Of a stretch of 20,503 bases of DNA, positions 3,220-19,169 are shown piece by piece. The translations under genes were made by a program, and so were the position numbers. A model generated the notes under the pieces. It was not told the origin of the DNA and did no database searches. It worked only from the letters and a program-made list of their open reading frames with translations. The stretch's first letter is position 1. Every line of letters starts with the position of its first letter. Origin of the DNA: a virus; IMG/VR virus record IMGVR_UViG_3300017776_006711, positions 1-20,503 of that record, one strand, 5' to 3'.

Positions 3220-3221
3220 TC

Positions 3222-3629: not shown

Positions 3630-3648
3630 AGTTGTTATATAGATTTAA

Positions 3649-6126
3649 TTATCCAAAAAATTGTTCAAGGTCGGCCACAGGTTCTGCGTGCCAGCCAATT
3701 GCGTCGAGAATCATCTTAATAGGATCAACAAACGTTTTATTAAACTGCAGATCATAATCAATGTAACGATCAAGTTCAAGCTCAGTTGGAAGGTGATCGG
3801 GAAATGATATCACGTTCTGCTGAATAGGGTTCGGCTTTTTGAGATATATAAACTTAATCTTATCCCCACTTTGAATAAGTGGAAACTGTTTGTTTAAGCC
3901 GCGATCTTTAATAGCTTTGTTATACAGTAACGAACCTCGAACATGAATAGGAGTACCCTTTTCAAAAATTGTACTGGCGTTGGCCCATTTGCGAATAGCA
4001 TTAACTCCACGAGGAAAGGCAACCTTATCAGCAGACAGTACACTAAAATGCGATTTGAAAAGTTGAATTGCTTCTTGTGTTTTACCTTCATCACCAGTCA
4101 TGATTATCTTGAACATTGCGTTCATGGCTTCACGACAGACTTGAGGAGTTGAACTTTTGATAGCTTCAATACCCATGATCTTGATCTTAGGTTCTGCATA
4201 CTGAACACCTTCATTGTTATGAACGTTAAGAATGTATCGTTTCTTTGCAGTCCAGATTCCACGATCAGCAATGGCCTCTCGCTTCATTACCATACGGTTG
4301 CAATATGCAGATGAATCTTCAGCGAATTTATCAAAGGCTTCTGCCAACATTGGCTCGATAGCTTTACTGCCAAACTCGTCAAGAAAGGCAACAGGATCTT
4401 TTGGCTTGAACTTGTCAATCACATCTTTCACGCCAATGTATAAAGAGTCGGTATCAATCGCAATAACCCTATCCTTCTTTTCTTTAAGAAAGTCATCGAG
4501 AAAGTCGTTAACTTTTTCTTCAGCATACTTGATAACAGCTTGGCCGGTAAGAGTGATTCCAGACGCAATGCGAAGATCAAAGTAACGAAAATATTTGTTA
4601 CCACACGCACCGTATAATGAGTTAAGAAGAATCTTTACAGCCGTTTGAGAAGTATCAAGTCTTGCCACATCACTTTCTGCCGCCTTTCTTGCCGCTCGAT
4701 CCGACTTGGAAACTTTCTCCAGGCTGCGTTTTGCGGCAATCATTTCATCTTTAATGTCGACCCTTTTATCGTAAAGCTCTTCAACAATCGCTGGGATGAT
4801 ACCCTTTTTAGCTGTACTAAATACTGCACCATTTGATGCCTTTGCACCAATAGGATCTTTCATCTGCAGCAGTGTTTCGGGCGACATGTTATATTGAACA
4901 ATAAGATTGGGATACAAGGAGTTAAGGTCAAACGACATAACCCAGTCATGCATACCAACGTGAGGTTCCTTTACAAAACCACCAGGGAATGTTTCGGAAT
5001 AGTTTTCTTTACTTGGAGTTACGGCAATCTTTTTCTTTGCCAACCGCCGAAAGATAATGCTGTCCCATATCGCAGTGGTTCCAAGCGTGTCGGTGTAATT
5101 CACTCCACCTAGATAAGCCATGGTTAAAACCAATGTGATAAGACCTAGCTTTTCTTCCATGCGATCTACCAGCTCAACGTCCTTGATATTATAATCAACA
5201 AACATTTGATAGTCGGCATCATAAAGATCTCGGAGTGTACCAATCTCTGAGTAGTCAAGTTTCTTCTCGCCAAGAACCACACTCGCAATATGATTAAGTG
5301 AATAAGACTCTTGGTTACCATAAGTGTAAGCAAACTTTTTAAAGAGTTCCATATAGTCCAGTGACTGAACTCCGCTTATATCAAAAGTAACCTGTGTCTT
5401 ACCCATGATAGTAATCTCTCGGCGATCAATCTTACCCCAAGGAGAAAAGCTTTTAGCAATATCCTCGCCAAGTAAAACGGCAGAGCGAGAAACAAGATAA
5501 GGAATATCAAAGAACCTTGTATTCCAACCAGTGATAACATCTGGAGTGTATTCAGGTTGGGACCAATGATCAATAAAGTCGTGAAGCATCTCAGCCTCAG
5601 ATTCAAACTGGCGATATTCGATTTGCAAGTGAGTTAGTTTGGAGGCGGCAACATCATAAGGCTTTATACCCCATACACGATACCGATCTTCACGACTTGA
5701 CTTGTAAGCGATTGTGAGGATCTCGTTTGTAGGATTATCAACCTCGGGAAAACCATCGCCGTAACTTGTCTCAATGTCAAGAGAGGCAACGTCAATGTTT
5801 GCGCGAGAGTAATTTATCTCATCGGGAAACTGACTTTGAATAAAGGCAGGAATGTGGCGAGTGTTGCCATAAAGCTTAAAGTCGGCTACCCCGTCGTAAG
5901 TCTTTTCAAACTGACGTACTTCAGACATTGACTCGAACCGCATGGGCTCAACTGGAGTACCATCAAGGGCCTTCCATTCCGTGACATCGTTTTTGGACTG
6001 AAGGAAAAGCTGGGGGCGATACCTAATCTTGTGTCTTACTTTATTTCCCTGATCGTCATAACCTCGGTAAAGCAGTTGATTACCAAAGCGGTCGACACAA
6101 GTATAAAAACCTTCTATTGTAAGCAT
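3649..6126 (-). CDS. 43: DNA polymerase, family B (T4 gp43)
   Basis: The replicative DNA polymerase with 3'-5' proofreading exonuclease. Residues 117-120 (DIET) form Exo I, and the sequence DVITGWNTRFFDIPYL marks Exo II. Polymerase motif A is SFDLNSLYP near residue 400, motif B KILLNSLYGACGN near 500, and motif C AIDTDSLYI near 560. At 825 residues it is somewhat shorter than T4 gp43 (898). The last residues DLEQFFG form a hydrophobic tail at the position where T4-type polymerases contact the sliding clamp. It starts a cluster with MazG-like, primase-like and accessory genes. Its promoter has the -10 box 6 bp before the ATG, so the mRNA is probably leaderless. Confidence 0.97.
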   Translation of the reverse strand: MLTIEGFYTCVDRFGNQLLYRGYDDQGNKVRHKIRYRPQLFLQSKNDVTEWKALDGTPVEPMRFESMSEVRQFEKTYDGVADFKLYGNTRHIPAFIQSQFPDEINYSRANIDVASLDIETSYGDGFPEVDNPTNEILTIAYKSSREDRYRVWGIKPYDVAASKLTHLQIEYRQFESEAEMLHDFIDHWSQPEYTPDVITGWNTRFFDIPYLVSRSAVLLGEDIAKSFSPWGKIDRREITIMGKTQVTFDISGVQSLDYMELFKKFAYTYGNQESYSLNHIASVVLGEKKLDYSEIGTLRDLYDADYQMFVDYNIKDVELVDRMEEKLGLITLVLTMAYLGGVNYTDTLGTTAIWDSIIFRRLAKKKIAVTPSKENYSETFPGGFVKEPHVGMHDWVMSFDLNSLYPNLIVQYNMSPETLLQMKDPIGAKASNGAVFSTAKKGIIPAIVEELYDKRVDIKDEMIAAKRSLEKVSKSDRAARKAAESDVARLDTSQTAVKILLNSLYGACGNKYFRYFDLRIASGITLTGQAVIKYAEEKVNDFLDDFLKEKKDRVIAIDTDSLYIGVKDVIDKFKPKDPVAFLDEFGSKAIEPMLAEAFDKFAEDSSAYCNRMVMKREAIADRGIWTAKKRYILNVHNNEGVQYAEPKIKIMGIEAIKSSTPQVCREAMNAMFKIIMTGDEGKTQEAIQLFKSHFSVLSADKVAFPRGVNAIRKWANASTIFEKGTPIHVRGSLLYNKAIKDRGLNKQFPLIQSGDKIKFIYLKKPNPIQQNVISFPDHLPTELELDRYIDYDLQFNKTFVDPIKMILDAIGWHAEPVADLEQFFG

Positions 6127-6132
6127 AATATA

Positions 6133-6161
6133 ATTATATCAAAATTCTAGGAAAAAGTAAA
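6133..6161 (-). promoter_or_regulatory. Promoter of gp43
   Basis: Minus strand TTTACT (6161-6156), a 17-bp spacer and TATAAT (6138-6133), then 6 bp to the ATG at 6126. The predicted start of transcription is the A of ATG. Confidence 0.7.
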
Positions 6162-6186
6162 TCCTAAAATGTATATAAACTAAAAA

Positions 6187-6381
6187 TTATTGGTTCGCTT
6201 CTACTGCAAACCGTTTGGCTCTTTTTGCCAAGTATACTATAAAGCCGAAGAACGACATTAAAACTCCCGTTAAAACAAGTAAGAGTAGAAAGATAGCAGC
6301 ATTGGATGCAATCAGCTCTTGACCTTCTGCCCCACTCAAGCACATAGGACACGCTAAAAATACTTTGCTGGAAATAACCAT
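6187..6381 (-). CDS. Small CPxC membrane protein, 64 aa
   Basis: A short protein with ACPMCLSGAEG near the N-terminus, a strong hydrophobic helix around residues 27-52 and a basic tail (YLAKRAKRF), so it is probably single-pass with the tail in the cytoplasm. The layout of CPxC, G-rich turn, N-A-A-I and one membrane helix resembles small bacterial proteins encoded near cytochrome c oxidase genes in some phyla, which suggests a host-derived gene; that comparison is from memory. Unlike those proteins it lacks a clear signal peptide before the CPxC. It sits alone between the terminator after hsp20 and the gp43 promoter. The overlapping frame at 6164-6394 lacks these features. Confidence 0.5.
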   Translation of the reverse strand: MVISSKVFLACPMCLSGAEGQELIASNAAIFLLLLVLTGVLMSFFGFIVYLAKRAKRFAVEANQ

Positions 6382-6393
6382 TTGCTGTAAACA

Positions 6394-6424
6394 AAAGCCC
6401 GTCAGGGGTTGCCCAACGGGCTTT
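6394..6424 (-). terminator. Rho-independent terminator after hsp20
   Basis: A perfect 9-bp inverted repeat, AAAGCCCGT (6394-6402) with ACGGGCTTT (6416-6424) and a 13-nt loop that can pair further (GGG with CCC). On the minus strand it is followed by TTTTGTTT. It lies 11 bp after the hsp20 stop and separates hsp20 from the CPxC gene. T-rich sequence on the other side means it may work in both directions. Confidence 0.8.
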
Positions 6425-6435
6425 ATTATGTTTGT

Positions 6436-6864
6436 CTATTCGGACAGAAATTCTTTTTCTGTTTTACCGTTAATTGTAAACACCTTTGGTTGAAGTTCTT
6501 CAGGTATTTCTCTTTCAAGTTTGATCGAAAGGACTCCATTTGTCAGTGTCACACCTTTGATTTGGACGTGCTCGGCAAGGTCAAACACCTTATCAAACTT
6601 TCTTGTTCCGATACCTTTATGCAGGTACTGAACGTCTTGACTTGAAGATTCTTCACCTTCAATTTTAAGCTGACTTTTTTCGAGAGTAACCTTTAGGTCT
6701 TCCTCTTTAAAGCCTGCTACTGCGATCGCGATTTCAAATGCGTTATCCGAATGTTTAATAACATTATGCGGAGGATACGTTTGGTTGGTTTGCGATGATT
6801 CAATTCGATCAAAGAACTGATCGAACCCTACTGTCCACGAACGTGGGATACTATATGCTGTCAT
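6436..6864 (-). CDS. hsp20: Small heat shock protein, Hsp20 family
   Basis: A 142-residue alpha-crystallin-domain chaperone. The N-terminal part (SWTVGFDQFFDRI) matches the IbpA-like start, the crystallin domain spans about residues 32-130 with NAFEIAIAVAGFKEEDLKV and the signature NGVLSIKLEREIPEE near its end. Small heat shock proteins hold unfolding proteins without ATP; Hsp20 genes are common in marine T4-like phages, where a role in capsid or scaffold folding has been suggested. It has the clearest Shine-Dalgarno sequence in the window: AAGGAG at 6876-6871, 6 bp before the ATG. The stop is TAG, followed by a strong terminator. It lies downstream of the two paralogous small genes and is likely transcribed from the late promoters before them. 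Confidence 0.93.
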   Translation of the reverse strand: MTAYSIPRSWTVGFDQFFDRIESSQTNQTYPPHNVIKHSDNAFEIAIAVAGFKEEDLKVTLEKSQLKIEGEESSSQDVQYLHKGIGTRKFDKVFDLAEHVQIKGVTLTNGVLSIKLEREIPEELQPKVFTINGKTEKEFLSE

Positions 6865-6870
6865 GTTTTT

Positions 6871-6876
6871 CTCCTT
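6871..6876 (-). promoter_or_regulatory. Shine-Dalgarno sequence of hsp20
   Basis: AAGGAG on the minus strand, 6 bp before the ATG at 6864. It is the clearest ribosome binding site in the window, where most genes have none. Confidence 0.75.
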
Positions 6877-6900
6877 GTATTAAGCGAGTTTATGTTGGTC

Positions 6901-6943
6901 GGAACCCCGAAGGCATTCCTATTGACTGACCTTCTTGGTCAAT
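6901..6943 (-). other. Two stem-loops between the paralog pair and hsp20
   Basis: Read on the minus strand, an inverted repeat ATTGAC...GTCAAT (6943-6921, with an alternative TTGACC-AAGA-AGGTCA stem) is followed by GGAATGCC-TTCG-GGGTTCC (6919-6901), a stem capped by a UUCG tetraloop with one bulge. Neither has a T-run after it, so they look less like terminators than RNA processing or stabilising structures in the hsp20 leader. Confidence 0.45.
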
Positions 6944-6960
6944 CAAAATTGTGTTACGCG

Positions 6961-7260
6961 TTAAGCGTAAAATCCAGTCTTTGTGAATAGTACGTCGTTT
7001 GATCCGTTATCTCCGTCAAGATCATCGGTTGCGTATATCTCTTCATCGTAATCTTTACGAACCAAAACACTTTTATTACCTTGTATAGCAAATACAAAAT
7101 CCACAGAAGAATCATATCCTGAAGAACCGTTAGGTTGAATATGAATGTACCTTACTTGGGACTGGGTATTTTGAACAAGTACCTGCTGGGCTTCTTCAAG
7201 CGTTGTAGCAGATGATTGTCCTTCAGCAAAGGTAATTAAACCAAGCGGCTGAATCTTCAT
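6961..7260 (-). CDS. Small protein, second copy of a tandem paralog pair (99 aa)
   Basis: This protein and the one encoded at 7266-7553 are clearly related: both contain QQVLVQNT, RYIH, SVLVRKDYD-EI and end in DVLFTKTGFYA, with variable glycine and serine-rich loops between. I do not know their function. The strand-rich, loop-variable pattern without membrane or catalytic motifs would fit a small structural or decoration protein. It starts 5 bp after the first copy and is followed by hsp20. The late promoter cluster upstream of the pair supports virion-related or late use. This copy has a longer acidic loop (DDLDGDNGSN) and a less conserved N-terminus. Confidence 0.75.
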   Translation of the reverse strand: MKIQPLGLITFAEGQSSATTLEEAQQVLVQNTQSQVRYIHIQPNGSSGYDSSVDFVFAIQGNKSVLVRKDYDEEIYATDDLDGDNGSNDVLFTKTGFYA

Positions 7261-7265
7261 TTGCG

Positions 7266-7553
7266 TTATGCGTAAAAACCAGTTTTTGTGAAGAGCACGT
7301 CAGTTGCTGCACCTGTTCCAGAAGAAGCTGTTGAAGCAAAGATTTCATCATCGTAATCTTTACGAACCAAAACACTTTGATTTGGCTGCAAGTAAAATGA
7401 TGCAATACGAGTTCCCGTACTACCTTGTTCAACATGAATGTAACGCCCACTTGAAGATGTGTTTTGAACAAGCACTTGTTGCGAGTCGTCAACAGTGGAA
7501 GCATTTGCTGTGAGAGATGCAGCGGCGGCGATATTTAATGGATTAACTTTCAT
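7266..7553 (-). CDS. Small protein, first copy of a tandem paralog pair (95 aa)
   Basis: A 95-residue strand-rich protein related along its length to the neighbour at 6961-7260. Shared blocks are QQVLVQNT, RYIHV, SVLVRKDYDDEIFA and DVLFTKTGFYA. The N-terminus MKVNPLNIAAAASLTANAS is alanine-rich but lacks a lysine-hydrophobic-cleavage pattern good enough to call a signal peptide. Three TATAAATA motifs lie 23-47 bp upstream of the ATG, a strong sign of T4-type late transcription by gp55. A structural role is inferred, not shown. The ATG at 7553 is the natural start; no Shine-Dalgarno sequence is visible. Confidence 0.75.
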   Translation of the reverse strand: MKVNPLNIAAAASLTANASTVDDSQQVLVQNTSSSGRYIHVEQGSTGTRIASFYLQPNQSVLVRKDYDDEIFASTASSGTGAATDVLFTKTGFYA

Positions 7554-7575
7554 AAGTAAAATGCTATTGTTATTC

Positions 7576-7600
7576 TATTTATATTTATAGACTATTTATA
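7576..7600 (-). promoter_or_regulatory. Cluster of three T4-type late promoter motifs
   Basis: TATAAATA occurs three times on the minus strand within 25 bp, at 7600-7593, 7589-7582 and 7583-7576 (the last two overlap by two bases). All are exact matches to the T4 late promoter core recognised by gp55 with gp33 and the clamp. The first overlaps the end of regA; all point at the paralog pair and hsp20. Confidence 0.65.
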
Positions 7601-8029
7601 CTGTTTCTTAACATTACCAATTGTATATTTTTCTTTAAGTACCCAATTAGACTTTTCTTTAAACGAAATAATCTTAATCTTTTTCAGATCAGTTGTTTCG
7701 GTTATCTGGTCGCGTTGGGCCAAGCGAATCAGTCCCCAGTCGGAAAGTAAAATTGAAATAGTATTCCTTCGTCTAAGATCATCAAGAGTAAAGTCAGCAG
7801 GCTTTCCATCAAGCATAAACAATTCTTTGAAGTGAAGAATAAAGTAACGTCCTTGCTTGTGTAGAATATGACAGCTTTGGAAAAGAGTGTTGCCATCTCG
7901 ATTTGAAGCAACCCCAATTCTGGAAAGTGTTTCCTTCACCTTTAAAAAATCGTCAGGTTCATTCAAATGGACTTCGAGCATATTCTCGGGTGTCCATTCA
8001 ACATAATCATTTTGAAAATTATCATTCAT
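7592..8029 (-). CDS. regA: RegA-like translational repressor
   Basis: The protein matches T4 RegA through DDFLKVKETLSRIGVAS, LFQSCHILHKQGRYFILHFKE, LLSDWGLI, ISFKEKSNW and the C-terminal EKYTIGN. RegA binds the translation start regions of early phage mRNAs and blocks initiation. At 145 residues it has about 15 extra N-terminal residues and 6 extra C-terminal residues compared with T4 RegA (122). As in T4 it follows the clamp loader genes 44 and 62 (19 bp after gp62). A TATAAATA motif 5 bp before the ATG suggests late expression from a start at or next to the ATG. It stops with TAG. Confidence 0.93.
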   Translation of the reverse strand: MNDNFQNDYVEWTPENMLEVHLNEPDDFLKVKETLSRIGVASNRDGNTLFQSCHILHKQGRYFILHFKELFMLDGKPADFTLDDLRRRNTISILLSDWGLIRLAQRDQITETTDLKKIKIISFKEKSNWVLKEKYTIGNVKKQYK

Positions 8030-8034
8030 AATCT

Positions 8035-8042
8035 TATTTATA
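8035..8042 (-). promoter_or_regulatory. Late promoter motif before regA
   Basis: An exact TATAAATA on the minus strand with 5 bp to the regA ATG (8029). With T4 late promoter spacing, transcription would begin at about the A of ATG. It lies in the 19-bp gap between gp62 and regA. Confidence 0.5.
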
Positions 8043-8048
8043 TTCTTA

Positions 8049-8486
8049 TTAGCGGCCTCCTTTATCCCTTAGCTTATGCAGCTCGGTTAATGCGGATTGG
8101 GTAAACAACGGAAGTACTTCTCTTGCCTTTTCAGAGCTATACCCATAGTGTTCTTTAATAACTTCAATATCTTTATCATCAGGCACAGCTTTAAACCACT
8201 TACTAAACCGTCGGCGGGGACGAATAGTATTTCGCAAAAAGTCATACTGCATACGGGCTGGTAAGCTTGCGTATTGATTCATCTCATTAGCAAACAAAAC
8301 AGTATCCTGAAAGTAAGACATGGCTCGGTTAATCATAAATGGAACATAAGCCTTTTCAGGTGAGTCAACCGCTACCGCTTCATCACTATATGCGGTTGCA
8401 TCTTCTAAAATGTCTTTTGAGTTAGGTCCACTATTGATGTTTGTTACCACATCAAAGAAAGAAAGCTTCTTTTCTTTTTTAGCCAT
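8049..8486 (-). CDS. 62: Clamp loader small subunit (T4 gp62)
   Basis: A 145-residue protein directly after gp44, separated from it by 1 bp. It has no ATPase motif. The pattern YVPFMINRAMSYFQDTVLFANEMNQ, LPARMQYDFLRNTIRPRRRFSKW and KEHYGYSSEKAREVLPLF is that of the gp62 family in marine T4-like phages; T4 gp62 is longer (187). The protein forms a 4:1 complex with gp44 in the T4 model that opens the gp45 clamp and loads it onto primer-template DNA. Gene order gp44-gp62-regA equals T4. Confidence 0.88.
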   Translation of the reverse strand: MAKKEKKLSFFDVVTNINSGPNSKDILEDATAYSDEAVAVDSPEKAYVPFMINRAMSYFQDTVLFANEMNQYASLPARMQYDFLRNTIRPRRRFSKWFKAVPDDKDIEVIKEHYGYSSEKAREVLPLFTQSALTELHKLRDKGGR

Positions 8487-8487
8487 C

Positions 8488-9432
8488 TTACTTCTTCCAA
8501 GCTACGTTAGCCATAAGTTCGGTAAGGCAAGCAACCATGTTTAACTCTCTGTCAGCTACAAATGCCGACTTATATTGATAATCCGCAAGAATAAGAACGG
8601 CAGAAGGAACACCAGTTGCATCAGCGTGATCATTCAAGACATCATATATCTTTCGGAAAATAGCAGAAGTATCCAATGCTGCGTTGTTTGCTACCCACGA
8701 TCGCATACTCTTAAAGTCCTTTGACTTGAGATGCGTAATTACCTCGGCAACACTTTCATCGCTGTTACCAATAAGAATGGCTGCTGGGATCTCTCCAGTG
8801 CTGCTGTATCTCTGACACTCGCCAATAACCCTACGCCAATCTGGCGCATGGCGAATAATAAGTTCGGCAATAACCTTTTCGTTATAAGTGATACCTTCCT
8901 TGTCAAGAATATCCTTGAGCCGACCCATGAACTTACTTGCAAGTCCGGCAAGTTGTTTCTTGTTTGTATTAAACTCAACAACTGCGCACCTGCTATGAAG
9001 AGGTTCAATAAGGCGATTCTTAAAGTTGCACGTAAGAATAAACCGACAGTTATTACTAAACTCTTCAATGAATCCGCGAAGAGCGGGCTGTGTACTTTGT
9101 GCGTTTAAGTAATCGGCCTCGTCAAGAATGATAACTTTAATTCCGCCAGTTAGACTTACAGTACTAGCAAACTGTTTAATCTTATTTCTAAGAACGTCGA
9201 TTCCGCTTTCTTCCGATCCGTTGATCAGCATCCAGTCCAAACCCAGTTCATTACACAATGCTTTGGCAATGGTTGTCTTACCTGTGCCGGCGGTTCCAGC
9301 GAGAAGCATGTTGTGCAGCTCACCGCTTTTTACGATTGCATTAAAGGTGTCTTTAAGATCCTTGTCAAGAATGCATTCATTAATAGTTTGGGGTCTATAT
9401 TTTTCGACCCACAGGAATTCACTTTTATTCAT
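8488..9432 (-). CDS. 44: Clamp loader ATPase large subunit (T4 gp44)
   Basis: An AAA+ ATPase of 314 residues. The Walker A motif GTAGTGKT is at 46-53, Walker B IILDEAD near 101-107, sensor 1 in TCNFKNR near 134-140 and the SRC motif, which supplies the arginine finger, at 147-149. The N-terminal LWVEKYRPQTINE is typical of clamp loaders. With gp62 it loads the sliding clamp gp45. Length matches T4 gp44 (319). The promoter upstream has its -10 box 6 bp from the ATG, predicting a leaderless mRNA. gp62 follows 1 bp after the stop, so their translation is probably coupled. Confidence 0.96.
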   Translation of the reverse strand: MNKSEFLWVEKYRPQTINECILDKDLKDTFNAIVKSGELHNMLLAGTAGTGKTTIAKALCNELGLDWMLINGSEESGIDVLRNKIKQFASTVSLTGGIKVIILDEADYLNAQSTQPALRGFIEEFSNNCRFILTCNFKNRLIEPLHSRCAVVEFNTNKKQLAGLASKFMGRLKDILDKEGITYNEKVIAELIIRHAPDWRRVIGECQRYSSTGEIPAAILIGNSDESVAEVITHLKSKDFKSMRSWVANNAALDTSAIFRKIYDVLNDHADATGVPSAVLILADYQYKSAFVADRELNMVACLTELMANVAWKK

Positions 9433-9438
9433 AATAAT

Positions 9439-9467
9439 ATTATAACATATTTAAAGGTATATGTAAA
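9439..9467 (-). promoter_or_regulatory. Promoter of gp44
   Basis: Minus strand TTTACA (9467-9462), a 17-bp spacer and TATAAT (9444-9439), followed by 6 bp and the ATG at 9432. Confidence 0.75.
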
Positions 9468-9483
9468 CCATAAAGGTTAATAC

Positions 9484-9570
9484 TTAAGGACTGGTAAGAT
9501 CAATAAGCGCATAAGCGCAAATCAATACCATTGCAATTCCTGCAAAGCCAAAAAGTATTTGCTCATTCAT
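9484..9570 (-). CDS. 28-aa membrane microprotein
   Basis: A 28-codon frame beginning MNEQILFGFAGIAMVLICAY and ending in TAA, with one hydrophobic segment covering residues 5-24. It lies 7 bp after the 97-aa gene and just before the gp44 promoter. A strong AGGAGGAG (9590-9583) lies 12 bp before the ATG, wider than usual but rare in this window. Small single-helix peptides are common in phages, but the function is unknown and the short length keeps confidence moderate. Confidence 0.45.
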   Translation of the reverse strand: MNEQILFGFAGIAMVLICAYALIDLTSP

Positions 9571-9577
9571 GACGCAT

Positions 9578-9871
9578 TCACTCTCCTCCTAAAGTCCTAA
9601 ACCCTTGAAAAAGTTTGGCAAAAATACCTTTGGCTGGGACTTCAATAATCTTTGGAGCGGAAGGAACAGGATCAACAAAATTAATTGGGATAATGTCCTC
9701 TGGATTTTTTTCAGCACGCTTGGCTGCGTTGGTCAGTTCAGACGCAGTAAACAAAAGAGGCTTGCTGTCTTCAATAAACACTTGAAAGTATTCACTTGAA
9801 GCCGAGGTCCTAGCCTTACGATTTGGCACTTTACAAACATACGCGCGTTTTTGTGTAGGAAGATCTTTCAA
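9578..9871 (-). CDS. Hypothetical 97-aa protein
   Basis: A 97-residue protein read from a TTG at 9871, since no ATG exists in the first part of the frame. It includes RAYVCKVPNRKARTSASSEY, a short strand FQVFIED, TASELTNAAKRAEKNPEDIIP and an amphipathic C-terminal KGIFAKLFQGFRTLGG. I do not recognise it. The FTASEL-AA-RA-KNPEDI pattern looks like a small helical domain common in phage hypothetical proteins. It starts 2 bp after the lipoprotein stop, so it is probably translated by coupling, which would explain the weak start codon. Its last codons contain the AGGAGGAG that may serve the 28-aa gene. Confidence 0.6.
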   Translation of the reverse strand: MKDLPTQKRAYVCKVPNRKARTSASSEYFQVFIEDSKPLLFTASELTNAAKRAEKNPEDIIPINFVDPVPSAPKIIEVPAKGIFAKLFQGFRTLGGE

Positions 9872-9873
9872 AA

Positions 9874-10176
9874 TTAATAATTGTAATAAGGTGAGCGGGG
9901 ATAACTATAACTAGGCCGGGGATGATTATAAGGTGGCCGTGGATAATTGTAATAAGGTTGCGGTTGGCGGTTGCGATAAGCTCGGTTCTTAGTGAGTTCT
10001 GATCCAGCCACTGCGCCTACGGCACCGCCGATAAGAGCTCCTGTGCTATCACCAATTAGGGCACCAACACCAGCACCTACGGCACCACCAGCAACAGCAC
10101 CGCGTTCGCCGGGTGTACAGGAAGAGCCAAGAAAGGCAGTTACCCCAAGAAGAGAAAGTAAGATTGTTTTTTTCAT
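9874..10176 (-). CDS. Glycine-zipper lipoprotein-like protein
   Basis: The 100 residues begin MKKTILLSLLGVTAFLGSSC, a lipoprotein-type signal peptide with a candidate lipid-modified cysteine at residue 20 (the box GSSC is not ideal). Residues 24-55 are a glycine zipper (AVAGGAVGAGVGALIGDS and GALIGGAVGAVAGSE), as in outer-membrane lipoproteins of the SlyB/YmgG type. The tail has Y-x-x-P-R repeats with a 7-residue period. Such proteins insert in or coat envelope membranes; in a phage it could take part in host envelope change or lysis, but that is inference. The ATG at 10176 is preferred because upstream codons fall in the tRNA. The gene is 13 bp from the tRNA 3' end and shares its transcript. 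Confidence 0.75.
   Translation of the reverse strand: MKKTILLSLLGVTAFLGSSCTPGERGAVAGGAVGAGVGALIGDSTGALIGGAVGAVAGSELTKNRAYRNRQPQPYYNYPRPPYNHPRPSYSYPRSPYYNY
9879..9958 (-). repeat. 21-bp repeats at the end of the lipoprotein gene
   Basis: About three and a half imperfect copies of a 21-bp unit; the GAT in each unit falls at 9900, 9921 and 9942. They encode the P-R-P/S-x-Y-x-x heptad tail. Such repeats can change copy number by slippage or recombination. Confidence 0.6.
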
Positions 10177-10189
10177 AATCAATTTAAAA

Positions 10190-10262
10190 TGGAGGCACGG
10201 AGATTTGAACTCCGGACCGCCTGCTTGCAAAGCAGGTGCTCTACCAACTGAGCTATACCCCC
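10190..10262 (-). tRNA. tRNA-Ala (anticodon UGC)
   Basis: A 73-nt cloverleaf on the minus strand. The acceptor stem pairs GGGGGTA with TGCCTCC (two G-T pairs), the D arm starts with GCTC-AGTTGGTAGAGC, the anticodon arm is CCTGC-TTTGCAA-GCAGG with anticodon TGC (10229-10227), and the T arm is CGGAG-TTCAAAT-CTCCG. The discriminator base is A and CCA is not encoded. It lies between the 75-aa gene and the lipoprotein gene in what looks like one transcript from the gp45 promoter. It is the only tRNA in the window and reads alanine GCN codons, mainly GCA. Confidence 0.96.
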
Positions 10263-10268
10263 TTATTC

Positions 10269-10496: not shown

Positions 10497-10506
10497 GTTT
10501 TATATA

Positions 10507-11181: not shown

Positions 11182-11187
11182 GGTTCT

Positions 11188-11216
11188 ATTATATAATAAA
11201 TTCAGGGAAATGTAAA
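11188..11216 (-). promoter_or_regulatory. Promoter of gp45
   Basis: Minus strand TTTACA (11216-11211), a 17-bp spacer and TATAAT (11193-11188), followed by 6 bp and the ATG at 11181. It begins right after the T-run of the terminator at 11229-11261. Confidence 0.8.
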
Positions 11217-11228
11217 TAAAAAAGTAAT

Positions 11229-11261: not shown

Positions 11262-11277
11262 CTTCTAATTAGCACTA

Positions 11278-11535: not shown

Positions 11536-11606
11536 ATTATGTTTTATTACTTTGTGTTTTGGCCTGTAGTGTTGTTAATTGGCGAAGGCCACGCCAAATT
11601 GTTAAA

Positions 11607-12791: not shown

Positions 12792-12823
12792 AATGTAGTG
12801 GAGTGTAGTTTGGTTACTAGTAT

Positions 12824-12852
12824 ATTATACCACAGTTTTCGGTAAATGTAAA
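12824..12852 (-). promoter_or_regulatory. Promoter of the CobS-like gene
   Basis: Minus strand TTTACA (12852-12847), a 17-bp spacer and TATAAT (12829-12824), with TGG before the -10 box. Unlike the replication promoters, 32 bp separate the -10 box and the ATG at 12791. Confidence 0.75.
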
Positions 12853-12867
12853 TAATAAAGTTACCCT

Positions 12868-15171
12868 TTATGATATAAGATCGCTAAATTTGGATAGAAA
12901 CACACGGGATGTCCGCTTGTCTCTGTTCTGAGTGGAAAACTTTTTAGCAAGTTTGTTGACATCAGCTGCTTTACTATAATCAAGATCTTCTTCTACTTCA
13001 AGCTCAGTGTTTTCAATCCTCACCCTACTTGTTTCAATAATAAAGTATCCGTCATATCCTAAGCCGTCCTCAATAAAGAGGGTCCTGCTTTTGTCTTTTA
13101 CACACTTCTTTCGCAACTCCCTGTATTCCTCTGTACCTTGATACCAATCGGTCGCCTTAAATTTAGATGAATGAGTTATTGCAGTAATCCCTGCGCTCTT
13201 GGCGTCACGGCATTCTCCAAGAAAGAAGCAAATCGCGGAAGAACCCGTCATCTTTTTAAAGTTAAGAACAAGCTGCCTATAAGTTGACTGCCGGTGACGA
13301 GCTCTAAAGGCATCAGGCCCAATTAAAGTATTACCCCAACGAACATATTCCTTTCTAGCTGAGTAAGAGTAATAGCCTTTAGGTGCATCGCCATTGGCCA
13401 CCATAGGTTTTTCAAACTTTTCGTTTTCATCATCAGAAATATAATTTAAAGCGCTTGACTCGCCATCAGTAAGAAACATGGTGTGGAGCTTTTGAACTTT
13501 GTGCTGAGCTCGAAACTTATTTACAATTTCCGCAGCGATGAACACGGTATCAAAAAGAGGGGTTCCTCCTAAAGACTCAAGGTCGCTCTGAAACGTATTG
13601 CCCCATGATCGCGATCCAACAAACAATTCCTTACACGCATCTTCAAATTCTCTTTTGCAAATACTTGAGTTTAACAGCTCAAAGACGTGGGTTCCTGATA
13701 AGGATACCGTAGTGCCAACTTGGTCGGCAAGAATCTCTTTCTCTTGGCGCCAATTTCTTCCAGTTGTAAAACCGTAAACCTCGAAAGGTATGCCAATTGC
13801 TTTACAAAAGAAAGCCAATTGAAGGGCTTGTTCGATCACATCGTGAAGTACTCTACTCATACTCCCGCTCCAGTCAATAAAGAAGACCATTCCGTGATCC
13901 TTTGAAGTAGCCAATTTGGTAACCGACTTAAAGATCTGCTCTTCATACTTGTAAGAATGAAGTTTGTTTGGGTCAATGGCTCCGGTAGAGGAGCTCTGTG
14001 CTCGAGAGTATTCGTAAGCAGACTTTTTACGCTCAAATTCTCTGACAAGAAGAGCAACACTCTTTTTAGAATCTTTCTTGAATGCTGTCCACGAATGATC
14101 CTCATTCAGATCTGTCATCAGATTATTGTATATTGAAAGATTCACCTTTCTTCCCGCTCGGACTTTATCAAGAGGGCAAATGCATTTCTCTATCTGCTCA
14201 CGACTAGGAGCATCGGCGTAAATTGTTCCGTCCCAGTCTTCTTGGGAGTTTTCCAGTTCTTCATCAAAGGCGCGCTGGGTTTCTGAAATGGCATCGGAAT
14301 AGTCATAGTCATCATCACCTTCACTGCCGACGGAATTTTCTTTTCTCAATGATTCTTCAGCTTCTTCATCTTGATTAAAAGGCTCGGTTGTTTGACCGGA
14401 TTCATCTTTATCATTTTCGTTTTGATCTTGGTCAGAAATAGAATCATTTTTATCACCGTCTTCTTCATTCATTGAAGGGTCAGGCGTGTTTCCACGAATG
14501 TCAATGTCTAGACTATCATCATCTCCACCATCCTCTCCAGAATCTTTCCCAGGGTTGAACGGTTCTTCTTGTGTCGAAGGATTATCTTTTGGAAGCTTAG
14601 AAATAATCTCTCCGCAAATATCAAGTACCTCTTCGTAGGTTTCAGCCTTTAAGCAGCGGTTGTAAATCTCTGTTTCCCATTCGTCAAACTGCACATTAAT
14701 AAGATGGCGGAGTTTACCTTTAAGGTTAAGACGATCAATAAAGTTAAGTTCATTGACGTCCCGTCCTCTTATTTTAAAGAAGTCATTATTAAGAAGATGG
14801 GTATAGCCTTTTGTAAATGCTCTTACCAAGCCAGGGAATGCAGCAAGAATCTTACGTTCAATACGAATGTCCTCAACAACATTGGCGATATCAAATGGAG
14901 CCTCTTTACCAAATCGCTCGTGGTATAATTTAATACCATCTTGCGGTGTCCAATGCGCGTGTCCTACTTCGTGTCCGACAAGAAGGTCGGAGACATCCTT
15001 TGATTCAAGGTTCCAAGTGGGAAGACCTAGTACACGCTTCTTAACATCAAAGAAAGCGGTTTTGTAATTCCCTTGGCGGACTCGGATGTTCTCTTTAGCA
15101 AGAAGCTTGGCGAGTTGCCGCTGATGCTCAAAGCTAATGTTATGCTGTGGCTGATCAAGTGTATCTAACAT
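12868..15171 (-). CDS. CobT-like protein with HExxH and VWA domains
   Basis: A 767-residue protein in three parts. Residues 1-200 hold HEVGH (67-71) and NVVEDIRIE (97-105), a zinc-metallopeptidase-like site of the kind found at the start of CobT-type proteins. Residues 200-310 are an acidic low-complexity linker (D, E, S, N, Q). The C-terminal half is a von Willebrand A domain with MIDAS DWSGSMS near 433-439 and a later FLTDGESS. VWA proteins of this type work with MoxR/CobS AAA+ ATPases, and the CobS-like gene is the next one downstream. CobT is the VWA subunit of cobaltochelatase, but the peptidase-like motif and lack of a large subunit leave a protein-remodelling or proteolytic role open. 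It starts 24 bp after the 79-aa gene. Confidence 0.82.
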   Translation of the reverse strand: MLDTLDQPQHNISFEHQRQLAKLLAKENIRVRQGNYKTAFFDVKKRVLGLPTWNLESKDVSDLLVGHEVGHAHWTPQDGIKLYHERFGKEAPFDIANVVEDIRIERKILAAFPGLVRAFTKGYTHLLNNDFFKIRGRDVNELNFIDRLNLKGKLRHLINVQFDEWETEIYNRCLKAETYEEVLDICGEIISKLPKDNPSTQEEPFNPGKDSGEDGGDDDSLDIDIRGNTPDPSMNEEDGDKNDSISDQDQNENDKDESGQTTEPFNQDEEAEESLRKENSVGSEGDDDYDYSDAISETQRAFDEELENSQEDWDGTIYADAPSREQIEKCICPLDKVRAGRKVNLSIYNNLMTDLNEDHSWTAFKKDSKKSVALLVREFERKKSAYEYSRAQSSSTGAIDPNKLHSYKYEEQIFKSVTKLATSKDHGMVFFIDWSGSMSRVLHDVIEQALQLAFFCKAIGIPFEVYGFTTGRNWRQEKEILADQVGTTVSLSGTHVFELLNSSICKREFEDACKELFVGSRSWGNTFQSDLESLGGTPLFDTVFIAAEIVNKFRAQHKVQKLHTMFLTDGESSALNYISDDENEKFEKPMVANGDAPKGYYSYSARKEYVRWGNTLIGPDAFRARHRQSTYRQLVLNFKKMTGSSAICFFLGECRDAKSAGITAITHSSKFKATDWYQGTEEYRELRKKCVKDKSRTLFIEDGLGYDGYFIIETSRVRIENTELEVEEDLDYSKAADVNKLAKKFSTQNRDKRTSRVFLSKFSDLIS

Positions 15172-15195
15172 AATATAAAAAGTTGGATATTAACC

Positions 15196-15435
15196 TTAAA
15201 GGAAGTTGTAGATTTTAGCGTTTTTCCTTGCCACCTTTATGCAGGTGGTGGCATCCTCCGATCCAGCCTCGAATTGCTCCGAGTAAACCAGCTTGGAGAC
15301 GGGAGCCTCCTTACGGAATTCCTCCAGTTTAGCTGAGCCGTCAGCAAATTCCGAATAACAGGTATAAGTCCCATGCAGGGCGTTAATGTGATAGGAGGAA
15401 TTTAAGAGGCGTGTTGGGTTAGCGGCTTGAGTCAT
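15196..15435 (-). CDS. Hypothetical 79-aa protein
   Basis: The protein starts MTQAANPTRLLNSSYHINAL and includes a tract with YTCYSEFADGSAKLEEFRK. I do not recognise it. An in-frame ATG further upstream (15486) is rejected because it lies before the -10 box of the promoter at 15477-15505; a transcript from there would start near 15470 and leave a leader of about 35 nt to the ATG at 15435. It sits directly upstream of the CobT-like gene. Its promoter is a near copy of the one before the 87-aa gene at the left of the window. Confidence 0.6.
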   Translation of the reverse strand: MTQAANPTRLLNSSYHINALHGTYTCYSEFADGSAKLEEFRKEAPVSKLVYSEQFEAGSEDATTCIKVARKNAKIYNFL

Positions 15436-15476
15436 AATATAGTAGGTGGTGGGGATTGTAGTACCGTTACAGATAT

Positions 15477-15505
15477 ATTCTACCATATTTCCGCAAAAAT
15501 GTAAA
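15477..15505 (-). promoter_or_regulatory. Promoter of the 79-aa gene and CobT-like gene
   Basis: Minus strand TTTACA (15505-15500), a 17-bp spacer and TAGAAT (15482-15477). It belongs to a 47-bp block that matches 420-466 with one difference. Confidence 0.65.
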
Positions 15506-15523
15506 TACTAAAATGCTAAAAAA
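15477..15523 (-). repeat. Duplicated promoter block, copy 2
   Basis: Second copy of the 47-bp block found at 420-466, in the same orientation and with one mismatch in the spacer. The two copies lie about 15 kb apart before different small genes. Confidence 0.85.
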
Positions 15524-15532
15524 GAGCATTTT
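15510..15532. terminator. AT-rich hairpin, possible terminator
   Basis: A perfect 8-bp inverted repeat AAAATGCT (15510-15517) and AGCATTTT (15525-15532) with a 7-nt loop, followed on the plus strand by more T residues. On the minus strand it lies between gp46 and the -35 box of the next promoter, where a terminator would be expected, but the T-run there is interrupted. Confidence 0.4.
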
Positions 15533-15541
15533 TTTCGCAAT

Positions 15542-15558
15542 CCCCCAGAATACGGGGG
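15542..15558. other. GC stem-loop in the gp46 downstream region
   Basis: CCCCC (15542-15546) pairs with GGGGG (15554-15558) over a 7-nt loop. No T-run follows on either strand, so it is only a possible terminator or RNA stability element. Confidence 0.35.
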
Positions 15559-15665
15559 TTCGAAGACCAGTTTCCTAGTAAATCACGAGAAATGGGTAGT
15601 TAATATCCAAAAGCAGTATAATTTACCTAATAATCCAAAACGAGCCACTTTTCACAGATTTCACA

Positions 15666-15698
15666 ATTGTAACTCGTTAATAACAATAGAGTTACAAT
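15666..15698 (-). other. Stem-loop just after gp46
   Basis: A perfect 10-bp inverted repeat, ATTGTAACTC (15666-15675) with GAGTTACAAT (15689-15698) and a 13-nt loop, ending 5 bp past the gp46 stop codon. No T-run follows, so it may protect the mRNA 3' end or be a protein-binding site. Confidence 0.5.
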
Positions 15699-15702
15699 CT
15701 TA

Positions 15703-17424
15703 CTATGTAATGGATTTCACGTTTGTAAAGTTTTGGCGGCGTTCAAACTCGATCTTTCGCTCGAACTTTCCTTCAAGAAGATCCTGCTTGTGGCTAATAA
15801 CGCATACCCGTGTTTCTTCATCAAGGGTATTCATAATCTTCAAGAGATTGTCAATTCCATCAATATCAAGGCTTGCATCAAATACCTCATCAAGCATAAG
15901 CAAGTTTGTATTTGCGGAGTTCTTCATTTTGGCGATTTGTCTCCAAGCAAACAACAAGCTTAAATCTATCCTCTGCTTTTCACCTTCAGAAAAAGATGAA
16001 TATGAAAACGCATCGCGGTGTCGAGACTTGATTGTTTCAGTAAAGTTTTCGTCAAGCTCAAAGCTAACAAAGAAGTCAAGTACTTGAAGGTAGTTGTTAA
16101 TCAGCTTGTTCATTACTGGAAGGTATTGCTGAATAATCTTAGTCTTGATTCCGGTATCCTTTAACAGTTCAGAAAGAACTTCATTATAATGTCTTTCCTC
16201 AATCAGAGCAGACTTATCGTTACTGATTGTTTCACGTGATTCTCTAAGATCGTCAAGATCGGCCTTTGCGGTTTCCAAGTCTTTATCCGAGGATATTGAA
16301 CCTTTTTGCTTTTTAAGTTCATCTGCTCTTTTATTGAATTGAGCAATCAGAGACTGGTTGGTAGTTAGCGTATGATTAAGCTGGAGAATACGATTAAGCT
16401 CTTCTTGACTATCTTTAAGATCGGAGGTAGCCTTAGTAAGATGCTGTTGAAGAGCGGCTTTACCGTCCACGAGTTTACCTCTCCACTTTTTACTTTTCTC
16501 AATCTTGTTTTCGCAAAAAGCTTCGCTCAATTGCTGCTGACAGGTCGGGCAAGAACGGTTATCAGTATAAAACTTAATGTCATTATCAACCGTACTAATG
16601 TTTGTTGCAATTCCTTTATCACTATCGCTGATGCTTGCAATTGATTCATTAAGCTTGTCGACCTTTGCTTTAGCAACAGGATACTTTTCCTGATACTCTT
16701 CAAGCAGCTGCTGATTACTTTTAATGTATACGTCAATCTGCTCTTCAACTTCTTTCAGTTCTTCATCATATTTTGCGTCGTTACTTTCGCCAATCTTTAC
16801 CAATTTGTCAATGTGTTTATTTTGCATTGCCACTTTAGACTTGACCAACTCCAGATCGTGTTCGGCTTCAGTTAACTTATCCTTAAGCTTACCACTCGAT
16901 TCCTTTAGCACTTGGTTCATCTTCGAGAAAATACTAATATCAAGAAGATCTTCAATTACCGCCCGTCTTTGATAAGTAGGCAGCTGCATAAACGGAACAA
17001 AGTTTGAACTACCAAGAACCACAACCTGGTGAAAGCTTTTATGATTAAGCTTGAGGATGTTTGTTTCAAGTAGCTTTTGATAATCCCGTGAATGTGATTC
17101 TTGGTTAATCATTTCACCGTCAACCCAGATCTCAAAGATGTTAGGTTTAATACCACGAACAATCTTGTATTCCTTTGTGCCGATACTAAACTCAACTGTT
17201 ACTTCGCACTTCTTTCCGTTGATACTATTAACAAGTTGAGGCTTATTAATTGCTCTATGGGGTTTACCGAAAAGTCCAAAGCTTAACGCATCAAGCATAA
17301 GACTCTTACCCGAACCATTATGTCCAACGATCAGCGTTGAACGAGAATCCATGAAGTTAATCTTAATTGGGTTTGATCCCACACTAAGAAAGTTTTTATA
17401 TTCCACTGTCTTAAAATTAATCAT
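15703..17424 (-). CDS. 46: Recombination endonuclease subunit (T4 gp46, SbcC/Rad50-like)
   Basis: A 573-residue SMC-type ATPase. Walker A GHNGSGKS is at 34-41, a long coiled coil runs from about residue 165 to 430 and is broken by a zinc hook CPTC near residue 290, the ABC signature FSEGEKQR is near 485, and Walker B LLMLDEVFD follows. It pairs with gp47 to form the Mre11-Rad50-like nuclease that processes DNA ends for recombination-dependent replication and degrades host DNA. Length matches T4 gp46 (560). The start overlaps the gp47 stop by 4 bp, so translation is coupled. It stops with TAG. Confidence 0.96.
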   Translation of the reverse strand: MINFKTVEYKNFLSVGSNPIKINFMDSRSTLIVGHNGSGKSLMLDALSFGLFGKPHRAINKPQLVNSINGKKCEVTVEFSIGTKEYKIVRGIKPNIFEIWVDGEMINQESHSRDYQKLLETNILKLNHKSFHQVVVLGSSNFVPFMQLPTYQRRAVIEDLLDISIFSKMNQVLKESSGKLKDKLTEAEHDLELVKSKVAMQNKHIDKLVKIGESNDAKYDEELKEVEEQIDVYIKSNQQLLEEYQEKYPVAKAKVDKLNESIASISDSDKGIATNISTVDNDIKFYTDNRSCPTCQQQLSEAFCENKIEKSKKWRGKLVDGKAALQQHLTKATSDLKDSQEELNRILQLNHTLTTNQSLIAQFNKRADELKKQKGSISSDKDLETAKADLDDLRESRETISNDKSALIEERHYNEVLSELLKDTGIKTKIIQQYLPVMNKLINNYLQVLDFFVSFELDENFTETIKSRHRDAFSYSSFSEGEKQRIDLSLLFAWRQIAKMKNSANTNLLMLDEVFDASLDIDGIDNLLKIMNTLDEETRVCVISHKQDLLEGKFERKIEFERRQNFTNVKSIT

Positions 17425-18506
17425 AGTGCATCTAGGGTTTGAGCTTCGACGTAAAGCTCTTGAAGTTTATTTTTAATGCGATCTCGATTCAAGTCAGTTT
17501 GAACCGAATCCACATATGTATTTAAAAGGGTGATTGTATCAGTTAACTCAAGCGCAGTTTCATCTACGTTTTCGGAAAGGTATTCGTCAAAGTTTTCAAC
17601 AATCTTTAAATCAAATGGATTCCTAGCAACAATTTCATCAATGTATTTGTCAAAAAGAAACGGGTTCTTCTTGTTAACCACAACCACTTTAATGTATGAT
17701 CCACTTACCACATCAAAGTTAATCTTTTTCAGCTCCGCCGCAACATCATCGGTTGAGTTAATGTCGTCATATCGCATTCGGTTGTAAATCGTAATCTTAT
17801 TTCTAACCGGAGTAAGCTCCCGTGTTTCGGTATCAATTACGTGAAAGTATTTTGGATCATCGCAGTCAGCCCAAGTAAGCTCATAAGGAGTACCCAGATA
17901 ATGAACGTTACCCTTTGTACTTTTTGTATGATAGTGACCGCTCATCACGGTTTCAAATCTGGAAAAGATATCCGATGCCATTCCATGGCTAGAAGACTGA
18001 ACGCCTTTCATCATATCAAATCCTGCAAGCTCAAGGTGGCCACCAAGAAACGGTGCCTTTACTGTTTTGATAAAGTCAATACACTCTTCGTAATTTTCTT
18101 CATTGATCCAAGGTAGTAAACCAATATCCAAGCCATCATAACTGACTACCGTTGGATCCATGTGAAGGTTAATTACGTCATCGTAATGACTAAGAATTTC
18201 TGTTAAGCTATTTAAATCATTTGTGTTTTTGTAGAAAACATCGTGGTTGCCTGGGATCAAATCCATGGTCATACCTTCTTCTCTAAGGCGATCAATGAAC
18301 ATACTTCTGTTACGGGCAAGTACCTTGATATTGGCAAACCGCCGATGATCAAAGTAATCACCAAGGTGAAGAATCTGTGTGATACCGTTCTTCTTGCAGT
18401 AAGGAAAGAATACTTCTTCGTAAAACCTTTCTGCGTAATTTAAGAAGATCTCACTGCCGTTCTTAACACCGGTATGTGTATCTGTAATTACTACTATCTT
18501 ACTCAT
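17421..18506 (-). CDS. 47: Recombination endonuclease subunit (T4 gp47, SbcD/Mre11-like)
   Basis: A 361-residue calcineurin-type metallophosphoesterase. The metal-binding motifs are in order: VVITDTHTG (D8, H10), LHLGDYFDHRR near 46, IPGNHDVFY near 84, and GHLE and GHYHTKS further on. It is the nuclease partner of gp46. Length is close to T4 gp47 (339). It overlaps gp55 by 8 bp at its start and gp46 by 4 bp at its end, so the three genes form a translationally linked unit. The T4 order 47-46 is kept. Confidence 0.96.
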   Translation of the reverse strand: MSKIVVITDTHTGVKNGSEIFLNYAERFYEEVFFPYCKKNGITQILHLGDYFDHRRFANIKVLARNRSMFIDRLREEGMTMDLIPGNHDVFYKNTNDLNSLTEILSHYDDVINLHMDPTVVSYDGLDIGLLPWINEENYEECIDFIKTVKAPFLGGHLELAGFDMMKGVQSSSHGMASDIFSRFETVMSGHYHTKSTKGNVHYLGTPYELTWADCDDPKYFHVIDTETRELTPVRNKITIYNRMRYDDINSTDDVAAELKKINFDVVSGSYIKVVVVNKKNPFLFDKYIDEIVARNPFDLKIVENFDEYLSENVDETALELTDTITLLNTYVDSVQTDLNRDRIKNKLQELYVEAQTLDAL

Positions 18507-19134
18507 CTTCTTTAAAGAATTCGTTTAAAGGACCGTTGGTGACAGCCTTTTTTGCAGGACGTCCACGTTTCTTTTTCTTTGGTGGTGGTTTGTCCTCGTC
18601 TTGATCGACCCAGCAATCATCGTCCCACATGCCATTGCGGTGACGCATTCTTTCAACGATTGATTCACCAATGGCGTTAATATCGTCGGTACCAAATTCG
18701 GCAAAGGCATCAATAGAAGTGTTGTCGATAATCCTTTGCTTGATTTCGGTTTGTCGCTTTTCCTTTGCGATTCGACGAAGAAAGCAAAAGTAACTGATTT
18801 GAGTAAAGTAACTAAAAGCGTTTGGAACACCGGTACGGGTTGGCTTATCAATATCAAAATTGTTAATCACCTTAACGCAGTTTTCTACAGCGTCCATAAC
18901 CATATCCTCTCTGTAGGTATAGTTAATAAAGTTGGGGCTACGGGATAAACCATTTGCGATTTTATAAAGACATAAACCAACATAATCGGTTATTGGTCTC
19001 GTCTCTTCGCCTTTGGCTTCGTCTTCTTTTACTCCTCGGACATGCGCCGCTACAGCTTCTCCGAATTCTTTGTTATTAACGTAGTCAACAGAGTCCTTTC
19101 TCCGCCTAGTACGTTTCTTACTTGGATTTGGCAT
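18499..19134 (-). CDS. 55: Late transcription sigma factor (T4 gp55)
   Basis: A 211-residue phage sigma factor. The core stretch DYVGLCLYKIANGLSRSPNF, YTYREDMVMDAVENC and the ANAFSYFTQISYFCFLRRI-like region (here PNAFSYFTQISYF) corresponds to sigma region 2, which binds RNA polymerase and the TATAAATA late promoter. T4 gp55 is 185 residues. The extra C-terminal part has KKKKRGRPAKK, an AT-hook-like RGRP core (190-193), and ends in PLNEFFKEDE, a possible sliding-clamp contact. It starts the gp55-gp47-gp46 unit from a promoter that predicts a leaderless mRNA. Exact late motifs occur in this window at 7576-7600 and 8035-8042. Confidence 0.94.
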   Translation of the reverse strand: MPNPSKKRTRRRKDSVDYVNNKEFGEAVAAHVRGVKEDEAKGEETRPITDYVGLCLYKIANGLSRSPNFINYTYREDMVMDAVENCVKVINNFDIDKPTRTGVPNAFSYFTQISYFCFLRRIAKEKRQTEIKQRIIDNTSIDAFAEFGTDDINAIGESIVERMRHRNGMWDDDCWVDQDEDKPPPKKKKRGRPAKKAVTNGPLNEFFKEDE

Positions 19135-19140
19135 ATTCTA

Positions 19141-19169
19141 ATTATATCAATAAACAGGACTTATGTAAA
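19141..19169 (-). promoter_or_regulatory. Promoter of gp55
   Basis: Minus strand TTTACA (19169-19164), a 17-bp spacer and TATAAT (19146-19141), followed by 6 bp and the ATG at 19134. Confidence 0.78.

Follow-up and report, generated by a model that had tools for sequence, protein, structure and literature searches.

Phage T4 is a familiar example of replication genes regulated through the mRNA leader, by RegA and by gp43 autorepression. In excerpts of a T4 review (PMC3014915), RegA sites overlap the AUG or adjoin its 5′ side and include a 5′ poly(A) tract. The gp43 operator consists of a hairpin about 40 nucleotides (nt) upstream of the AUG and a sequence overlapping the ribosome-binding site. 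RegB cleaves GGAG motifs, many of which are Shine-Dalgarno (SD) motifs. Some T4-related gp43s do not autoregulate. The window, a 20.5-kb IMG/VR virus record (IMGVR_UViG_3300017776_006711), is part of a T4-like phage from a group of aquatic phages. In it the genes of gp43 (DNA polymerase), gp44 (clamp loader), gp45 (sliding clamp), gp55 (late sigma factor) and an open reading frame (ORF) of 87 amino acids (aa) have sigma70-type promoters that probably start RNA at the A of the start codon and so give leaderless mRNAs.

Leaderless mRNAs are already known, phages included. Bacterial and phage examples (lambda cI; Mycobacterium, Deinococcus), as summarised in excerpts of PMC9031893, share with the window genes the AUG at the 5′ end (predicted here), the lack of an SD motif and the ATG start. 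The window differs in that the T4-like replication core and late sigma factor are concerned, in a lineage with SD motifs at background, and in that its 5′ ends are predicted. In excerpts of the paper on giant phage AR9 (PMC5312081) the authors comment that leaderless transcripts are frequent among phages; AR9 itself has leaders of 26–491 nt and encodes its own RNA polymerases, unlike the window. Among titles and abstract beginnings of open-licence papers, no report of this layout for T4-like replication genes is found, and the word "leaderless" is absent from two T4 reviews that were searched for it, PMC3014915 among them.

Of the named phages, Phage C48C1 has the nearest gp43 (48.5% aa identity); its record places it in Kyanoviridae. 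The same gene cluster is present in the Kyanoviridae isolates C48C1, HTVC008M (Pelagibacter), Melnitz (Methylophilales), syn9 and BUCT-ZZ01 (Synechococcus) and P-SSM2 (Prochlorococcus). The C48C1 gp43 promoter is TTGACA-17-TATAAT-7-ATG, a short-gap layout like those of the window; this is the only 5–8 nt gap at the genes read in seven named phage records. C48C1 gp45, gp44 and gp55 (gaps of 29, 36 and 27 nt) and HTVC008M gp43 (12 nt) are unlike the window. The T4-type phage RB32 (L437) shares with the window the gene order 45-44-62-regA-43, interspersed with other genes, and a RegA with the cited RNA-binding residues. Unlike in the window, SD-like motifs (AAGGA, GAGGA) precede the ATG of its gp43, gp44 and gp45.

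Promoter layout in the window

The five promoters TTTAC(A/T)-17-TA(T/G)AAT-6-ATG described in the first-pass annotation are all present, on the minus strand and with exact 6-nt gaps between −10 element and ATG:

411–448, minus strand: promoter and ATG of the 87-aa ORF, TTTACA-17-TAGAAT-6-ATG; promoter 448–420, ORF 150–413
6124–6161, minus strand: promoter and ATG of gp43 DNA polymerase, TTTACT-17-TATAAT-6-ATG; promoter 6161–6133, gene 3649–6126
9430–9467, minus strand: promoter and ATG of gp44 clamp loader, TTTACA-17-TATAAT-6-ATG; promoter 9467–9439, gene 8488–9432
11179–11216, minus strand: promoter and ATG of gp45 sliding clamp, TTTACA-17-TATAAT-6-ATG; promoter 11216–11188, gene 10507–11181
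19132–19169, minus strand: promoter and ATG of gp55 late sigma factor, TTTACA-17-TATAAT-6-ATG; promoter 19169–19141, gene 18499–19134

Gene identities follow from PHROG matches (gp43 phrog_262, gp44 phrog_168, gp45 phrog_223, gp55 phrog_234, RegA phrog_242). The T4-like core cluster comprises gp43, gp44, gp45, gp62, RegA, gp46, gp47, gp55 and UvsW-type proteins, arranged as in T4-type phages. For the 87-aa ORF, PHROGs and Pfam give no match at E 0.001. Only two of its upstreams are informative, L083 having the same gap; a third, L005, is matched without a promoter. An SD motif is absent before all five ATGs, which is partly forced by the geometry.

The first-pass annotation called the layout hard to explain by chance, and the counts bear this out. 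The 38-nt pattern (at most 2 mismatches) has 7 matches in the window against a mean of 0.14 in 100 dinucleotide shuffles; 5 of the 7 end in ATG. The two matches without ATG are the promoter of the AAA-ATPase gene (12852–12824) and a plus-strand promoter at 19213–19241. The 29-nt promoter alone (at most 1 mismatch) has 9 matches against 0.30 expected. A generic 9-of-12 promoter scan of bases 1–20000 gives 48 matches against a mean of 42.2 (standard deviation 6.7), no clear excess; the promoter excess is confined to the strong 17-spaced form. Chance matches in AT-rich intergenic DNA, with which the generic count agrees, are already refuted as an explanation and keep next to no probability: the specific patterns beat the shuffles (7 against 0.14; 9 against 0.30) and the layout is kept in relatives.

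The same promoter type occurs in the window with longer gaps:

12792–12852, minus strand: promoter and leader of the AAA-ATPase gene; promoter 12852–12824, gap 32 nt, predicted 26-nt leader without SD; gene 11607–12791
15436–15505, minus strand: promoter and leader of a 79-aa ORF; gap 41 nt, predicted 35-nt leader; ORF 15196–15435

The claimed uniformity thus stands for the five genes and fails as a general rule, the AAA-ATPase gene and 79-aa ORF being leadered and gp44 orthologues having the layout in 11 of 102 cases. A uniform rule for the whole phage is ruled out by leadered promoters in the window and in the related records G001, G002 and G003. In these three the short gap recurs at other genes and the AAA-ATPase gene has a longer one; a uvsX-like gene in G001 and G002, its identity read from the protein start, has a longer gap too. 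AAA-ATPase orthologues have a gap of 25–49 in 30 of 40 rows and of 6 in one; nine are without a recognised promoter. Two minus-strand cassettes, 420–478 (87-aa ORF) and 15477–15535 (79-aa ORF), are identical at 55 of 59 positions. Because these near-identical twins differ in gap (6 and 41 nt), the promoter sequence alone does not decide the layout. No inverted repeats are found at the twin promoters at default settings; AT-rich hairpins appear there on folding.

The plus-strand promoter at 19213–19241 is a perfect TTTACA-17-TATAAT directed away from gp55 and antisense to the 103-aa and uvsW-type neighbours. Rfam has no match there. A divergent promoter within 250 nt is present at 44 of 64 gp55 orthologues and at 0/89 for gp43, 0/91 for gp45 and 0/98 for gp44. 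Upstream of gp55 it is present in HTVC008M, syn9, P-SSM2 and C48C1, and absent in Melnitz and BUCT-ZZ01.

Conservation of the gap across orthologues

Homologues were sought in 320 loci: 318 viral-contig loci (best 80 per scan, four scans of viral contigs with gp43, gp44, gp45 and gp55), the C48C1 region and the window's own stretch. The orthologue start was the one nearest to the homology-expected start, chosen blind to promoters; the start picker favours ATG. Rows were dropped if the match begins past query residue 30, if the upstream is shorter than 80 nt or contains N, or if it is >80% identical to a kept upstream. Non-redundant orthologues kept are 351 in total: gp43 90, gp44 102, gp45 94, gp55 65. 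Promoters were called with at most 1 mismatch and a spacer of 16–18, and the gap was counted from the −10 element to the start codon.

The gap distribution of the 351 orthologues is bimodal: 5–8 nt in 84 (gp43 34, gp44 11, gp45 17, gp55 22), 9–19 in 23, at least 20 in 87, below 5 in 1, with no promoter in 156. Over nine genes the mode is 6 (67 of 103 rows with gap 5–8), gaps of 5, 7 and 8 being found in 3, 25 and 8. Gaps of 5–8 are absent from the control genes gp47, gp62, regA and hsp20 (0/342 rows) and occur elsewhere in gp46 (2/44), the 767-aa gene (8/59), the 312-aa gene (5/64), mazG (3/63) and the AAA-ATPase gene (1/40). With exact TATAAT alone, the −35 element ignored, the peak is again at 6 (48 rows, then 15 at 7) and controls again have 0/342 at 5–8. 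Shuffled upstreams give gap 6 in 0/7,020 for the four genes and 1/1,920 for regA.

The length from −10 to ATG is held while the intervening sequence is lost. In gp43 rows with gap 6 and spacer 17 (n = 21), mean pairwise identity is 0.30 upstream of the promoter and 0.92 in the −35 element; it falls to 0.39 in the spacer, reaches 0.98 in the −10 element and drops to 0.36 in the six bases before the ATG. Identity of these six bases is 0.61 for gp44 (6 rows), 0.46 for gp45 (8) and 0.37 for gp55 (7). The gap of gp43 gap-6 orthologues is constant though N-terminal length differs by several codons.

A variable distance in close relatives, named in the first-pass annotation as evidence that would tell against its reading, is mostly not seen. 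Relatives at ≥87% aa identity and the window itself give 22 distinct upstreams, with a gap of 6 in 18, of 7 in 2, and of 14 and 15 in the remaining 2, both from L085. The gp43 tree comprises 84 of the 90 rows; six, L085 included, are omitted, no protein of ≥500 aa having been recovered. Of the 22 rows in the clade holding the window's species, 17 are leaderless-type and none is leadered; the other 5 have no promoter at the threshold. Across the tree at least 9 layout changes are counted among 57 labelled rows (leadered label, gap ≥9). L232 (gap 7) and L221 and L218 (29 and 28) have near-identical gp43 and unlike layouts; a layout switch can therefore be recent. The gp43 gene may be leaderless-type although gp45 of the same phage is leadered with SD, as in C48C1 and L232.

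Predicted transcription start, SD use and rival explanations

By convention, +1 falls on the seventh base downstream of the −10 element. With a gap of 6 it is therefore the A of the ATG. A purine precedes the ATG in 2/66 gap-6 rows of the nine genes against 131/457 other rows (no promoter or gap ≥20; p = 5e-7); rows with gap ≥20 alone have 36/142. This scarcity is as expected for +1 at the A of the ATG. The leadered promoters of the AAA-ATPase and 767-aa genes have a pyrimidine–purine (Y-R) step at position 7 in 45/53, against 2/53 at positions 6 and 8. Support is good for initiation no more than a base or two from the A, the exact base being a prediction. The earlier proposal of +1 at the A of the AUG is accepted as a prediction, given a gap conserved in diverged orthologues, a pyrimidine before the A, the Y-R step and no fitting SD.

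The SD fraction was taken from SD 4-mers before ORFs of ≥100 aa, with the first ATG as start; values are rough. In the lineage of the window it is.06 in the window (17 ORFs),.08 in G001,.05 in G002,.07 in G003 and.08 in G008, against an internal-ATG background of.05–.21. Elsewhere it is.55 in G004,.44 in C48C1,.52 in HTVC008M,.60 in BUCT-ZZ01,.54 in RB32,.29 in syn9 and.32 in P-SSM2; SD motifs are thus commoner in the Kyanoviridae isolates (.29–.60) than in the window. SD-poor loci hold 42/61 leaderless-type (gap 5–8) rows against 7/58 leadered rows. SD is absent in 82/84 rows with gap 5–8 and present in 64/87 with gap ≥20. One gene of the window is an exception:

6436–6876, minus strand: hsp20 with canonical SD AAGGAG; gene 6436–6864, SD 6871–6876

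The hsp20 SD is present in 24/25 SD-poor loci. Because hsp20 keeps one, host ribosomes presumably can use SD. The protein bS21 (PF01165) is found in 0/16 SD-poor and 6/12 SD-rich virus records, three bacterial assemblies left out. Classes were set from locus SD fractions, SD-poor records including L162, L184, L274, L172, L187, L091 and L099. The contrast is a lead only, several SD-poor records being near relatives and many being fragments.

Several observations weigh against strictly leaderless messages. The Y-R step is also present at position 9 in 43/53 leadered AAA-ATPase and 767-aa promoters, and is weaker in leadered gp43, gp44, gp45 and gp55 (43/87 at position 7, 37 at 9, 36 at 3); the +1 could be off by a base or two. 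The start codon is ATG in 84/84 gap 5–8 rows, which is weak evidence since the start picker favours ATG. That gap-6 rows have no SD is in part a matter of geometry, the −10 element sitting at the SD position, and is confounded with lineage, these phages being SD-poor at other genes too. The gp44 layout is present in only 11/102 orthologues, 75/102 having no recognised promoter. The close relative L085 (87–89% aa) has gaps of 14 and 15 at gp43 and gp44, with predicted leaders of 8–9 nt in which no SD is found. Folding of the first 40 nt is alike in leaderless and leadered rows (p 0.81). The leaderless status is a prediction from layout. A structure-free 5′ end was tried as a mark of leaderless messages and rejected: over the first 40 nt, folding is weak in all classes.

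Very short leaders are an unlikely alternative, in which RNA starts 1–3 nt off, the AUG lies near the 5′ end and initiation is SD-free and not strictly leaderless. Gaps of 5, 7 and 8 (3, 25 and 8 of 103), gaps of 9–15 nt without SD in the relatives L085, L276 and L292, and the second Y-R candidate at position 9 are consistent with it, and an excerpt of PMC9031893 speaks of an AUG at or near the 5′ end; the mode of exactly 6 (67/103) and the scarcity of purines just before the ATG in gap-6 rows speak for the exact register. That the true starts lie downstream, the promoter-proximal ATG being incidental, is most improbable. The first 5–6 residues of gp43 are poorly conserved, many matches starting only at residue 6 or 7; against this, the ATG of 71/84 gap 5–8 rows is at the homology-expected start or at most 4 codons downstream of it, and the base preceding the ATG is constrained.

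A layout of no special function is a possibility of some weight, short of an even chance, and is compatible with leaderless mRNAs. The host lineage would be mostly SD-free, leaders would be dispensable, and the layout would be the shortest tolerated junction. SD at background in the window-lineage records (.05–.08 against internal-ATG.05–.21) and the share of SD-poor loci in gap 5–8 rows (42/61 against 7/58 leadered) agree with it. Against it, the AAA-ATPase gene keeps a leader in the same genomes, hsp20 keeps its SD in 24/25 SD-poor loci, and gp43 is leaderless-type in SD-rich phages too, for example C48C1 (L002), L232, L206 and L235.

In the favoured explanation, leaderless mRNAs, the sigma70-type promoter would position RNA polymerase to begin at the A of the start codon. 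Selection would act on the distance from −10 to ATG, keeping it at 6 nt (in some cases 5, 7 or 8) and leaving the bases in between free to drift. Ribosomes would have to initiate on a 5′-terminal AUG; the initiating particle is probably the 70S ribosome, by analogy with known leaderless mRNAs. The leaderless layout would belong to a mode of initiation in this lineage that mostly does without SD.

RegA, leader-based control and other window features

RegA is encoded in the window:

7592–8029, minus strand: RegA translational repressor; phrog_242; residues matching K14, T18, R21, W81 and F106 of the T4-type protein kept

The RNA-binding residues of RegA are thus present, as in T4-type control of genes 43, 44 and 45; the leader with SD belonging to that control is not (gap 6, no SD). 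The layout has no room for the gp43 operator or for RegA sites near the AUG as placed in the excerpts of PMC3014915; if the messages are leaderless as predicted, neither RegA nor gp43 could have a T4-type operator in the leader. Such messages would lack these upstream sites; control would therefore be absent, in the coding sequence, or elsewhere in the operon. Insensitivity to controls that act on leaders, suggested in the first-pass annotation, is a possible consequence. The remark in the first-pass annotation that a RegA target would have to lie inside the coding sequence is reasonable in so far as RegA is encoded and no 5′ part of a site is possible on these predicted messages. RegA could still act beyond gp44, at the internal starts of gp62 and regA. 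Loss of gp43 autoregulation here would not be unique, since some T4-related gp43s lack it.

Other features of the window are as follows:

11229–11261, minus strand: intrinsic-terminator-like hairpin; 15 pairs counted, T-run reaching the gp45 −35 element
10190–10262, minus strand: tRNA-Ala (TGC), between gp45 and gp44

The hairpin would insulate gp45 from upstream transcription. In an Rfam scan of the window at gathering thresholds, tRNA-Ala is the only match. At 519–1772 (minus strand), ORFs of 229 and 187 aa lie in one frame across one stop codon and the gene looks split; the first, the one searched, matches tryptophan halogenase. At 6961–7553 (minus strand), adjoining ORFs of 99 and 95 aa resemble tandem paralogues by eye. 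In a host search in genome contigs, with 225 relatives, the best 80 considered and 15 examined, the best match is 54% aa and many are bins of metagenome-assembled genomes; no host is claimed.

A wider proposal is made tentatively and is rather doubtful. The lineage may have dropped SD initiation nearly genome-wide and may reserve 5′-terminal AUGs for the genes of the replisome and the late sigma factor, as an initiation class of their own apart from RegA/gp43 leader operators. Translation of this class would depend on how 70S ribosomes and initiation factors stand during infection, with hsp20, the conserved exception, staying on the host SD route.

In many relatives the same genes that are leader-controlled in T4 are predicted to be leaderless, beside orthologues with leader and SD, sometimes with near-identical gp43 (L232 vs L221, L218). 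This offers a natural comparison for the role of leaderless initiation in lytic infection and for the role of RegA without its usual target site. The layout also gives a simple way to call start codons correctly in viruses of this kind.

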